A DNA stretch of 64,000 bases, taken from positions 186,001-250,000 of the forward strand of contig JAIBAY010000006.1 of NCBI GenBank assembly GCA_019694975.1, read 5' to 3'. The stretch comes from Chitinophagales bacterium. Its GTDB lineage: Bacteria; Bacteroidota; Bacteroidia; Chitinophagales; UBA10324. This document shows positions 10,253-14,367 of this stretch, piece by piece. The notes under the pieces are model-generated. The model ran no database searches. It saw only the letters and a program-made list of their open reading frames with translations, and was not told where the DNA came from. The first letter of the stretch is position 1. Every line of letters begins with the position of its first letter. A program made the position numbers and the translations under genes.

Positions 10253-11257
10253 TCATTTCATCTTCACCACTACTTTTCCTTTTGCACGGCCGGTTTCTAC
10301 ATAAGCCAATGCTTCATTGGTTTGTTCAAACGGAAATACCTTGTCGACAACGGGCGAGATAACACCTGCGTTTATGAGAGTAGTAATTTCACTCAACTGG
10401 TTGCCGTCTGCGCTCATAAAAAGAAACGAGAAATTGACGTTTAATTTCTTCGCCTTTCTCTTTACACCCGCACTCAATATTTTAGTGAGGAATTGCAGGT
10501 GCCATGCTAAGTTTAATTTTCCGGCAAACTCAGGTGTTGGCGGGCCGGTCAGTGAAATGACGGTGCCGCCCGGCTTTAATATGCGTAAAGATTGCTCAAG
10601 AATTTTTGATTCACGGTTGCTGTGCAGCACGATATCATAATCTTTCAACCTGGTTGCAAAGTCTTCATTCTTGTAATCAATAATTACATCAGCGCCCAGT
10701 TGCTTAACCATATCAATATTATTGGTGCTGGTTGTGGTGGCAACGGTAGCGCCTGCATGTTTTGCGAATTGAATGGCAAATGTTCCTACGCCGCCTGAAC
10801 CTGCCTGGATGAAAACTTTTTGCCCCTTTTTCAGTTTTCCGATCTCAATCAAGGCCTGCCATACCGTTAAGCCAACCAACGGAATGGATGCCGCTTCTTC
10901 CATGGAGATATTTTTTGGTTTCAGGGCTAAATCGTTTTCAGGGATGGCAATATATTCGGCAAAAGTGCCAATATGAAAGTTGGAAGGCCTTGCATAAACC
11001 TCATCGCCAACCTTAAATTTTTTTACACCTGAGCCAACCTGTGTAATAACTCCGGCAACATCGTGTCCTAAAACAAATGGCGGTTTGTAGGGAAGAAAAA
11101 TTTTGAATTCGCCTTTCTTTATCAACGAGTCCAGTAAATTTATTCCGGCAGCATGTACCTCAACCAATACTTCATTGTCTTTGGCCACCGGTACCGGTAT
11201 GTCAGCGAGTTTTAGTTTTTCTTTATCGCTGTATTTTGTAACAGTGAATGCTTTCAT
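10253..11257 (-). CDS. NADP-dependent zinc-free MDR oxidoreductase
   Basis: A 334-residue MDR protein: N-terminal GroES-like domain (MKAFTVTKYSDKEKLKLADI, then VLGHDVAGVITQVGSG) and Rossmann domain with IQAGSGGVGTFAIQFAKHAGA near residue 150, ending GRAKGKVVVKMK. No zinc ligands are visible, so a quinone/enone reductase or related NADP-dependent activity is likely. It is the last gene of a four-gene minus-strand operon (spacings 37, 6 and 18 bp) headed by an SDR and divergent from an HxlR regulator. The set suggests reduction and hydrolysis of a reactive small molecule. Confidence 0.87.
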   Translation of the reverse strand: MKAFTVTKYSDKEKLKLADIPVPVAKDNEVLVEVHAAGINLLDSLIKKGEFKIFLPYKPPFVLGHDVAGVITQVGSGVKKFKVGDEVYARPSNFHIGTFAEYIAIPENDLALKPKNISMEEAASIPLVGLTVWQALIEIGKLKKGQKVFIQAGSGGVGTFAIQFAKHAGATVATTTSTNNIDMVKQLGADVIIDYKNEDFATRLKDYDIVLHSNRESKILEQSLRILKPGGTVISLTGPPTPEFAGKLNLAWHLQFLTKILSAGVKRKAKKLNVNFSFLFMSADGNQLSEITTLINAGVISPVVDKVFPFEQTNEALAYVETGRAKGKVVVKMK

Positions 11258-11275: not shown

Positions 11276-12139
11276 TTAATGAATAATTTTACCGTCTTCA
11301 ACAAATGTTATGGTTTCCTGTATTTCGTATGCATGAATTGCTGAGCAAAACAGTGATAGTCTGTCAGCTGATTTTTTGATTTCATCTCCAGTGAAAAATG
11401 CTGCCATGGCATTTGCATCAGCGAAACCTACCATGAGCGAGGCTTGAAACTGCACTTCTTTCGCATTGTCGTGAGCAACACCTGGTGTGTTCCATTGCTT
11501 TTCTTTCCAGGGCATATACACTTTGCTTCTTAACTCTTTCAGTACACCCATATTCGCTAAAGTGGGTGTGAGTTCTTCGGTTATATATTTTTTAAAATCA
11601 TTTTCACTTACACCTTCTTTGATGCTGAAAAAAACAATGCTTCTTGCTTTAACGGCATCGCTGGGTGGTGCTGCTTCATACCATCGGGAAGCATTTCCCA
11701 GTGAGGCATATAGAATAGTGCGCCTGAAAATATTTACTTCATCTTTAGAGGCGAGTTTGTTTTGCTTTTTCCCTCTGAAAATGGAAAAGACATTTTTCAA
11801 AGTAACATCGGCTATGCCATCAATTTTTCGGCCGGATGGAATGATAGTTTCAACACCGTTAATGGGTTGCCATAGCCCGGTGTTATTTTCCGCTAAATGG
11901 ATTTGCCTGTATTCCAGTAACCCTTTATTCGCTGAGATTATTTTTGAGTGCGGGCCTTTCCACCTGTCCATTCCTGCCTGACGAGGTGTATCTGTCCGCA
12001 TCCAAAGCAATATGGACGAAGAGCTGTGTTTTTCTGATTTAACTTTGGTTTGAACCTTGATCGGAGAGGTAGTTTTGTTTTGTGCAAAAGCGGCGGTAAG
12101 CGAAAGCATACAGAGTGTTATGATAAATTTATTTTTCAT
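11276..12139 (-). CDS. Secreted protein with two EthD-like dimeric alpha/beta-barrel halves
   Basis: The 287-residue product has a signal peptide (cleavage after AFAQ). Two segments look like repeated ferredoxin-like dimeric alpha/beta-barrel units: ILLWMRTDTPRQAGMDRWKG through LLEYRQIHL, and SIVFFSIKEGVSENDFKKYI through LKELRSKVYMPW. EthD, NIPSNAP and related stress proteins use this fold. Export is unusual for the fold, and the partners (SDR, hydrolase, MDR) lack evident signal peptides. The gene is 6 bp downstream of the alpha/beta hydrolase and 18 bp upstream of the MDR gene. Its role is unknown. Confidence 0.6.
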   Translation of the reverse strand: MKNKFIITLCMLSLTAAFAQNKTTSPIKVQTKVKSEKHSSSSILLWMRTDTPRQAGMDRWKGPHSKIISANKGLLEYRQIHLAENNTGLWQPINGVETIIPSGRKIDGIADVTLKNVFSIFRGKKQNKLASKDEVNIFRRTILYASLGNASRWYEAAPPSDAVKARSIVFFSIKEGVSENDFKKYITEELTPTLANMGVLKELRSKVYMPWKEKQWNTPGVAHDNAKEVQFQASLMVGFADANAMAAFFTGDEIKKSADRLSLFCSAIHAYEIQETITFVEDGKIIH

Positions 12140-12145
12140 GTTGAT

Positions 12146-13015
12146 TTATCGATTTAAAAATTCAATGGCTTTGGGTATAAACTCTTCGTGGTATTGGAAA
12201 ATACCACCATGCCCGGAGTCAGGGTAAATTTTTATTTGGGCGTTGGGAAATCTCTTAGCCATATCAAAAGATAATGGAGTTGGCACCATTCTGTCGGCAT
12301 CTCCGTTGGCAATAAATACCGGCAGTTTGAACACACTTAAATCCATAGGGCTTTCATTTCCCCATTTTTTTATCGCATTCAATTGTTTTTTCAGCACATA
12401 AAGCGCTACGTTTTTATCACGGTTTTCTTTTCTCTCTTTTAAGCGATTTAGAAAATCTTTTGCTGCAGCTTTTCCGATTTTATTTTGATTAAAAAACAAA
12501 TAGAACTTGGGATCTCTGAATGTAAATAGCCCCTTGAAAATATCACCATACGTTTTACCAGCCACATCGGGTATTCCTGTGCCACCTCTTGGTCCTGTGC
12601 CTGCAAGTATTGCTTTACGAACCAGCTGCGGTGCTGTTAAAAGTATTTCTTGTGTAATAAATCCACCCATAGAGAATGCTGCAATATCAACCTGTTTGAA
12701 GCCCAGGGCATGAATAAAAGCGATTCCGTCTTTTGCCATATCGGCAATACTTTCTCCCTGTTTGCCTGTTGTGGCGCCAACACCACGATAGTCAAATGAA
12801 ATTATCTGACGATGTGCTGCAATGGCATCCATGATTCTCGGGTCGCAATTATCAAGGTTGGCCGTTAAGTGATTGAAATAAATAACCGGTATGTCACCCG
12901 TTTTGCCGTAAGAGCGATAGGCGAATTGAATACCGTTGGCTGCTACAAATTGAGTGGGAACTGTTGCATAAGTGTAGACCGCATCTGAAGCGCTGCCGTT
13001 TTGTGTAATTTTCAT
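12146..13015 (-). CDS. Alpha/beta hydrolase
   Basis: The 289-residue protein shows the complete hydrolase triad: nucleophile elbow A-F-S115-M-G-G, acid in FIANGDADRM (Asp239 or Asp241) and H269 in PDSGHGG. The oxyanion region is VIYFNHLTANLDNCDP and the second strand reads FDYRGVGATTG. This resembles esterase/haloperoxidase-like members that act on small esters or lactones. It has no signal peptide. It is the second gene of the HxlR-linked operon, 37 bp after the SDR. Confidence 0.85.
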   Translation of the reverse strand: MKITQNGSASDAVYTYATVPTQFVAANGIQFAYRSYGKTGDIPVIYFNHLTANLDNCDPRIMDAIAAHRQIISFDYRGVGATTGKQGESIADMAKDGIAFIHALGFKQVDIAAFSMGGFITQEILLTAPQLVRKAILAGTGPRGGTGIPDVAGKTYGDIFKGLFTFRDPKFYLFFNQNKIGKAAAKDFLNRLKERKENRDKNVALYVLKKQLNAIKKWGNESPMDLSVFKLPVFIANGDADRMVPTPLSFDMAKRFPNAQIKIYPDSGHGGIFQYHEEFIPKAIEFLNR

Positions 13016-13052: not shown

Positions 13053-13853
13053 TTAGTTTTTATTTAATTGCTTAAGCACATTTTTTTCTAAAATCCCGTA
13101 GGCAAAGTGTTGCAGATTAAACAACACATTAGTACCCTTGCCAACCACATTCCTGAATTTAGGCCTGTCAGCCCTGACTACATTAAGTACTTTTTCCGCA
13201 ACAATTGCAGGGTCTTCAGCACTATTGACTAAGCCGGTTGTGAATTTTTCAATCTTGCTTCTCAAAGAGTTGTAGTCGTCAATTTTATTTAACGGCGAAA
13301 AGGAGTTATCCATAATGCTTGTTTTGAAAGCAGAAGGCTGAATCATTGCAACACTTATATTGAACTCTGTCAGTTCATATCTTAATGCTTTGAAATAACC
13401 TTCCAAAGCATGTTTGGACGCTGCATAGTAAGCTGCATTGGGGAAGGATACCAACCCTACAATAGAACCTACTGTTATTATTTTACCGGACTTTTGTTTT
13501 CTGAAATGGGGCAAGACTGCATTTGTTACCTTGATCGTTCCCCAAAAATTTGTTTCAAACTGCTGCCTGCCTAACTCAACAGGTATTTCTTCTGCAATAC
13601 CGGACACTAAAAAGCCGGCGTTATTGATGAGCATATCCAGCTGATTTATTTCCCTGAACAATCGCGCTGAAAAAGTGGCTAATGATTGTTCATCGTCCAG
13701 GTCCAATGCTATCATTTTAAAGGGAAACTTTGCGGCATACTTTGCTGGGTAGCGGCTTGTTCCGATAATACTGTATCCACTATCATGTAGTTTGGTTGCA
13801 ATCAGTAAACCGAAGCCTGATGATGCGCCTGTTACTAAAATAGTTTGCTTCAT
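13053..13853 (-). CDS. Short-chain dehydrogenase/reductase (SDR)
   Basis: Starting at ATG 13853 (MKQTILVTGASSGFG), the 266-residue protein has the classical SDR features: cofactor motif TGASSGFG at 8-15, NNAG at 77-80, catalytic Ser130 and Y143-A-A-S-K147. An upstream in-frame extension runs through the intergenic operators and is rejected. The gene heads a four-gene minus-strand operon and is divergent from the HxlR regulator at 13957; a TATGTTTG element at 13912..13905 is its probable -7 box. Classical SDRs oxidise or reduce alcohols and ketones; the substrate here is unknown. Confidence 0.9.
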   Translation of the reverse strand: MKQTILVTGASSGFGLLIATKLHDSGYSIIGTSRYPAKYAAKFPFKMIALDLDDEQSLATFSARLFREINQLDMLINNAGFLVSGIAEEIPVELGRQQFETNFWGTIKVTNAVLPHFRKQKSGKIITVGSIVGLVSFPNAAYYAASKHALEGYFKALRYELTEFNISVAMIQPSAFKTSIMDNSFSPLNKIDDYNSLRSKIEKFTTGLVNSAEDPAIVAEKVLNVVRADRPKFRNVVGKGTNVLFNLQHFAYGILEKNVLKQLNKN

Positions 13854-13857
13854 GGTC

Positions 13858-13887
13858 TTTGTTATTAATGGGCTGTTTGTATCTTTG
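13858..13887 (+). promoter_or_regulatory. Promoter of the HxlR gene (TTTG-N18-TATCTTTG)
   Basis: TTTG at 13858-13861 and TATCTTTG at 13880-13887 match the Bacteroidota primary-sigma consensus (-33 TTTG and -7 TAnnTTTG) with an 18-bp spacer. Transcription would start near 13893, inside operator 1, leaving a leader of about 64 nt. Confidence 0.65.
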
Positions 13888-13902
13888 CTTGCAATATGCA
13901 AG
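13888..13902. promoter_or_regulatory. Operator 1, dyad CTTGCAATATGCAAG
   Basis: The sequence CTTGCA-ATA-TGCAAG is a perfect 6-bp inverted repeat followed by TGCAAAC. It begins directly after the -7 box of the HxlR-gene promoter and overlaps the -7 box of the SDR promoter's flank. A second copy lies 33 bp downstream. HxlR dimers bind dyads of this size near their own genes, so it is a likely autoregulatory and operon operator. Confidence 0.7.
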
Positions 13903-13904
13903 TG

Positions 13905-13941
13905 CAAACATACAACAATACTTGCAAAAAGCAAGTGCAAA
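13905..13941 (-). promoter_or_regulatory. Promoter of the SDR operon (TATGTTTG -7 box)
   Basis: On the minus strand TATGTTTG (13912..13905) matches TAnnTTTG. The nearest upstream TTTG is at 13941..13938, a 25-bp spacing that is longer than usual, so the -33 part is uncertain. Both operators flank this box, so repression of the operon and of the regulator would occur together. Confidence 0.5.
13921..13935. promoter_or_regulatory. Operator 2, dyad CTTGCAAAAAGCAAG
   Basis: CTTGC-AAAAA-GCAAG, again followed by TGCAAAC, repeats operator 1 with a start-to-start spacing of 33 bp, close to three helical turns. On the minus strand it sits upstream of the SDR -7 box, where a bound repressor would block polymerase. 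Conservation of the arms but not of the spacer is what a protein-binding site would show. Confidence 0.68.
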
Positions 13942-13956
13942 CAAAAAAATATTTTT

Positions 13957-14367
13957 ATGAGCAAGTTGAAAAAAAGATCGGAGTGCCCGTTAAGCTGCTC
14001 GCTGGATATCTGGGGAGATAAGTGGTCGCTGCTGATCATCAGGGACCTGATGTTTTACAATAAGTCAACTTATGGCGACTTTCTGAAATCGCAAGAAGGT
14101 ATTGCTACGAATATTTTATCTGCCCGTTTGTCGGCACTGGAAGAAAATGGGATTATTGAAAAGGTGGAAAATCCCGGCACCAGGTCGAGGGTGTTTTATA
14201 AACTCACCCAAAAGGGAATTGAGTTGTTTCCCATTTTGGTGGAAGTGCATTTATGGGCTGAGAAATATTTAACAATTCCACAGGAAATAAAGCCAATCAT
14301 AAAGGAAGCAAAAAGGGATAAGGAAGGATTTATCAGGTCTTCCATGAAAGCGCTGAAAAAAGTTTAA
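13957..14367 (+). CDS. HxlR-family winged-helix transcriptional regulator
   Basis: ATG at 13957 (MSKLKKRSECPLSCSLDIWG) gives 136 residues with the HxlR order: the redox-sensing type N-terminal cysteines (C10 and C14), DIWGDKWSLLIIRDLMF, the recognition region ISARLSALEENGIIEK-like (ATNILSARLSALEENG) and the wing GTRSRVFYKLTQKGIEL. A longer frame upstream reads through the operator DNA and is not used. HxlR proteins are dimeric repressors or activators that often sense electrophiles or disulfide stress through an N-terminal cysteine. The two cysteines and the redox enzymes next door fit this, but the signal is an inference. Confidence 0.9.
   Translation: MSKLKKRSECPLSCSLDIWGDKWSLLIIRDLMFYNKSTYGDFLKSQEGIATNILSARLSALEENGIIEKVENPGTRSRVFYKLTQKGIELFPILVEVHLWAEKYLTIPQEIKPIIKEAKRDKEGFIRSSMKALKKV

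Follow-up and report, generated by a model that had tools for sequence, protein, structure and literature searches.

Paired dyads overlapping face-to-face promoters as a predicted operator of an HxlR-family regulator in Chitinophagales and related Bacteroidota

The analyzed stretch of Chitinophagales DNA, 64 kb in full and referred to below as the window, contains a gene for an HxlR-family regulator (+) that is divergent from an SDR oxidoreductase gene (-), with an intergenic region of 103 bp between them. The regulator belongs to the winged-helix domain family PF01638 (64.2 bits, cut-off 20.8, E 1e-17), carries Cys10, Cys14 and the recognition segment GIATNILSARL, and has PA1607 (PDB 2f2e, E 3e-20) as its nearest solved structure by sequence. 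The SDR gene is followed on its strand by three further genes, separated by gaps of 37, 6 and 18 bp in the order SDR, hydrolase, 287-aa protein and quinone oxidoreductase, and this close spacing suggests that the four genes form a single operon. The PIG3-like product scores 205.9 bits against TIGR02824, under the cut-off of 296.8. The 287-aa mid-operon protein matches no Pfam family up to E 5 and no NCBIfam family; its N-terminal segment resembles a signal peptide.

13957..14367, + strand: HxlR-family regulator gene, 136 aa (Pfam HxlR PF01638)
13053..13853, - strand: SDR oxidoreductase, gene 1 of the suggested leftward operon (Pfam adh_short, E 6e-42)
12146..13015, - strand: alpha/beta hydrolase, gene 2 (Pfam Abhydrolase_1, E 3e-18)
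11276..12139, - strand: 287-aa protein, family unknown, gene 3
10253..11257, - strand: PIG3-like NAD(P)H quinone oxidoreductase, gene 4 (TIGR02824)

The intergenic region is built in the order TATCTTTG, CTTGC-AATAT-GCAAG, TGCAAAC, ATACAACAATA, CTTGC-AAAAA-GCAAG and TGCAAAC. As the original prediction for this DNA had claimed, CTTGC-N5-GCAAG followed by TGCAAAC is present twice between the divergent genes (13888-13909 and 13921-13942), 33 bp apart from start to start, and TAnnTTTG boxes are found in both directions, TATCTTTG at 13880-13887 (+) and TATGTTTG at 13912-13905 (-).

13859..13861, + strand: rightward -33 TTG, 18 bp ahead of the -7 box
13880..13887, + strand: rightward (HxlR) -7 box TATCTTTG, abutting dyad 1
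13888..13902, no strand: dyad 1, CTTGC-AATAT-GCAAG (17-bp frame 13887-13903), between both -7 boxes
13905..13912, - strand: leftward (SDR operon) -7 box TATGTTTG, the TGCAAAC tail of copy 1, 2 bp off dyad 1
13921..13935, no strand: dyad 2, CTTGC-AAAAA-GCAAG (17-bp frame 13920-13936), over the leftward -33 element and the -33/-7 spacer
13932..13934, - strand: leftward -33 TTG, part of dyad 2 (right arm), with a 19-bp spacer to the -7 box

These are the only exact CTTGC-N5-GCAAG dyads in the window, and just 48 of 100,000 dinucleotide-shuffled versions of the intergenic region contained any perfect 5-N5-5 palindrome twice. The 4.3 Mb genome has seven exact sites, and the five besides the window pair all lie within predicted open frames, on which ground a wide regulon was rejected. 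Loose genome-wide scanning is uninformative, since the 17-bp motif with up to two mismatches is no commoner than its reversed control (140 vs 155 matches). The second HxlR paralogue of the same genome has a weaker dyad, ACTTGGAATATACAAGT, just upstream (L002 ~1415-1445, G000:C9) with a divergent frame alongside, and cross-regulation at this gene is possible.

To follow the dyads across genomes, 43 HxlR relatives were taken from GTDB species genomes. The close set comprises 33 loci (L010-L043 minus L014, which has no upstream DNA), all from Bacteroidota except one MAG labelled Acidobacteriota. Conservation in orthologous intergenic regions, on which the original prediction had staked itself, was found: two dyads lie upstream in 31 of the 33 close relatives (protein identity 59-85%), adjacent to the regulator gene, and the remaining two, L040 and L042, have a single dyad. 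Allowing one mismatch, the 3,465 upstream positions contain 55 matches and the other 196,612 positions of these loci contain 9, an upstream enrichment of several hundred-fold. Some of the 33 loci are near-duplicates; a flank-similarity filter leaves 18, with the pattern unchanged. The exact tandem pattern occurs in 4 of 395 genomes of the phylum, always immediately upstream of an HxlR gene (none for the reversed control), and this count is a floor because the strict pattern misses sites with a drifted arm. One of the four, L056:1569-1985 (genome G264), has two perfect dyads 35 bp apart upstream of an HxlR frame with two in-frame stops; either the regulator has decayed beside an intact operator or the stops are sequencing errors. 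About 15 HxlR genes from the same order whose recognition helix is of another type lack the CTTGC dyad; starts in this set were chosen automatically, and a few of its hits were of low quality. The dyad is also absent directly upstream of L050 and L052, two relatives that keep GIATNIL; the association of this segment with the dyads is partly built in, since the search patterns contained QEGIATNI.

Column statistics over the relatives define the conserved unit as a 17-bp ACTTGC-N5-GCAAGT with an A/T-rich center, rather than the 22-bp motif with tail proposed originally. The arms are conserved as predicted, but the TGCAAAC tail is the same in the window only: after copy 1 it contains the leftward -7 box in reverse reading, and after copy 2 it varies among relatives, so that it was rejected as a part of the operator. 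The first base of copy 1 is G or A because it doubles as the last base of the rightward TAnnTTTG box and has two roles. In copy 2, the left arm has changed to CTTTC or CTTTT in some loci and the right arm is nearly invariant, which fits the second role of the right arm, the supply of the leftward -33 TTG. In the 18 filtered loci, information is close to its maximum over the dyad arms and both -7 boxes but not in the flanks.

Dyad 1 lies exactly between two face-to-face -7 boxes. From the reported consensus of the Bacteroidota -7 box and its location at -12 to -5 (PMC9723704), transcription is predicted to start at 13892 rightward and 13900 leftward, both within dyad 1, and the transcripts of the two promoters would overlap by a few bases. 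This overlap of promoters by dyads is fixed in register across 32 loci, window included. The rightward -7 box is at offset 0 to dyad 1 in 31, the leftward box starts 2 bp past dyad 1 in 29, and 28 have a leftward -33/-7 spacer of 18 or 19 bp, against a background rate of ~2% per position for such -7 boxes nearby. The leftward promoter is near consensus, with an element score of 6/6 in 23 of the 32 loci. The spacing between dyads is less rigid: among the 31 loci it is 33 bp in 16, 32 bp in 12, 35 bp in two and 31 bp in one. The predicted placement on one face of the helix therefore holds for the 28 loci at 32-33 bp and fails for spacings of 35 or 37 bp, and strict same-face phasing was rejected over the full range of 31-37 bp.

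The pairing of HxlR with SDR holds in the window and does not extend to the relatives as the main partnership. A true SDR orthologue is directly adjacent in 8 of 31 relatives, whereas a leftward homologue of the PIG3-like quinone oxidoreductase, the commonest kept partner, is found in 27. In a Bacteroidota MAG, three HxlR genes lie within ~5 kb (L025:1210-6325), one of them divergent from an orthologue of the window SDR.

Taken together, these observations indicate that the dyads are very probably two sites for HxlR dimers, which would repress both hxlR and the SDR-hydrolase-unknown-quinone reductase operon and would probably dissociate when an electrophile attacks Cys10; we infer the binding, the repression and the inducer from the arrangement. 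Repression rather than activation is suggested by the position of the dyads. Activation of the leftward operon from the promoter spacer, combined with repression of the regulator's own gene via dyad 1, is an unlikely alternative reading of the same binding. In favor of activation, dyad 2 overlaps the leftward -33 element and the spacer of 18-19 bp that follows it, and the namesake of the family, B. subtilis HxlR, is an activator of hxlAB that uses two binding regions with imperfect direct repeats. The locus resembles that system in the family of the regulator and in having two proposed binding regions, but differs from it in its dyads and in the repression proposed here. Against activation, dyad 1 also spans the predicted leftward start, and the near-consensus leftward elements (6/6 in 23 of 32 loci) make an activator unnecessary.

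That another regulator binds the dyads and HxlR is a mere neighbor seems more improbable still. The assignment to HxlR comes from sequence, and the two relatives without dyads, L050 and L052, have the same helix; against this, the dyads stay with this HxlR clade through different genera and two phyla even where its partner gene differs (SDR, another SDR, FMN oxidoreductase, QOR), and the genome has no further exact copies outside open frames. The least probable reading, to which we give hardly any weight, takes the dyads as RNA hairpins in the hxlR leader, an attenuator or an mRNA structure. Dyad 2 falls inside the predicted leader and a 7-bp stem is possible in the window, but the leader folds no better than its shuffles (z 0.06) and pairing is not kept. 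At pair 4 of dyad 2, T stands opposite C and breaks the pairing in 8 of 18 loci, and a single two-sided change (a T-A pair) among the 18 falls short of compensatory pairing. Furthermore, dyad 1 straddles the start sites, and the T-run of a terminator is absent after the dyads. Hairpin, attenuator and intrinsic terminator were accordingly rejected.

The proposed repressor scheme can be compared with the quinone-responsive members of the HxlR (MarR/DUF24) family. YodB, QsrR and CatR of Bacillus and Staphylococcus are winged-helix dimers with an N-terminal Cys that repress quinone-detoxification genes (PMC8063818, PMC6798810), and for the 15-bp YodB site, TACT-N7-AGTA, the proposed mode of recognition is a single dimer that contacts two successive major grooves (PMC8063818). 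The window regulator shares with them the family and a conserved N-terminal cysteine, Cys10, and with YodB the 15-bp span of its operator. Its half-site is CTTGC, not TACT, its operator does not fit TACT-N7-AGTA, and, unlike in those systems, its dyads are paired and locked to face-to-face Bacteroidota -33/-7 promoters. By analogy with the YodB site, which is equally long, one HxlR dimer on each dyad is the economical arrangement. At dyad 1, the dimer would lie over the starts of both promoters; at dyad 2, it would mask the -33 element of the operon promoter together with the spacer. Occupation of both dyads would shut both promoters, giving autorepression together with repression of the operon.

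Cys10 is kept in all 45 residues aligned at its column and Cys14 in 34, including nearly all close relatives. By its place in the sequence, Cys10 appears to be the positional counterpart of Cys5-7 in YodB, QsrR and CatR. The conservation of both cysteines and the quinone reductase partners (27 of 31) suggest that the regulator senses electrophiles in the manner of YodB and QsrR (PMC6798810). An electrophile such as a quinone would react with Cys10, perhaps also Cys14, loosening the dimer and turning the operon on. Release through Cys10 is the least certain step of the scheme, with about even chances of being correct.

The arrangement also occurs beyond Bacteroidota. Two perfect dyads at a spacing of 37 bp are present in four mutually close Pseudomonas loci (L046-L049), whose HxlR proteins are 41-44% identical to that of the window. 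The promoter there reads TTGCAT-N17-TAyTAT, with its -35 element supplied by the outer arm of dyad 2. The pattern is not general in that order, because among 56 sampled genomes the exact match occurred only in the genome already known. The E. coli ytfH/qorB locus (L058:1021-1120) is similar in layout: an HxlR-like gene is divergent from a quinone oxidoreductase gene, with ACTTAC-N5-GTAAGT between them in the same 17-bp frame. It differs from the window in its half-site ACTTAC, the segment GVSEKML and the presence of one full dyad only. Another Bacteroidota HxlR with a SEKML segment, L062, has ACTTAC-N6-GTAAGT upstream. These two examples hint that the recognition helix reads a half-site code, SEKML with ACTTAC and ATNIL with ACTTGC, and are a lead only.

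Our reading of the locus supports the original prediction as essentially right and describes a predicted new operator for a known regulator family. Searches of the open-access literature turned up no description of this motif in connection with HxlR. More tentatively, and with somewhat less than an even chance of being right, we suggest that a widespread HxlR clade uses an undescribed operator code, a portable tandem of ACTTGC-N5-GCAAGT in which one arm doubles as the -33/-35 element and the spacing is set by the sigma-factor geometry of the host. As the arm doubles as a promoter element, the spacing would track this geometry and not helical phase; it is about 33 bp in Bacteroidota and 37 bp in Pseudomonas.

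The unusual feature of this system is the tight sharing of the same bases by operator arms and promoter elements. For an HxlR clade that occurs in many genera of Bacteroidota, the analysis provides a precise predicted map of operator and promoters, and it connects a whole group of operons for quinone reductases and SDRs with a single regulator that can be tested. Finally, the paired sites suggest how an operator can move between phyla that differ in promoter geometry.
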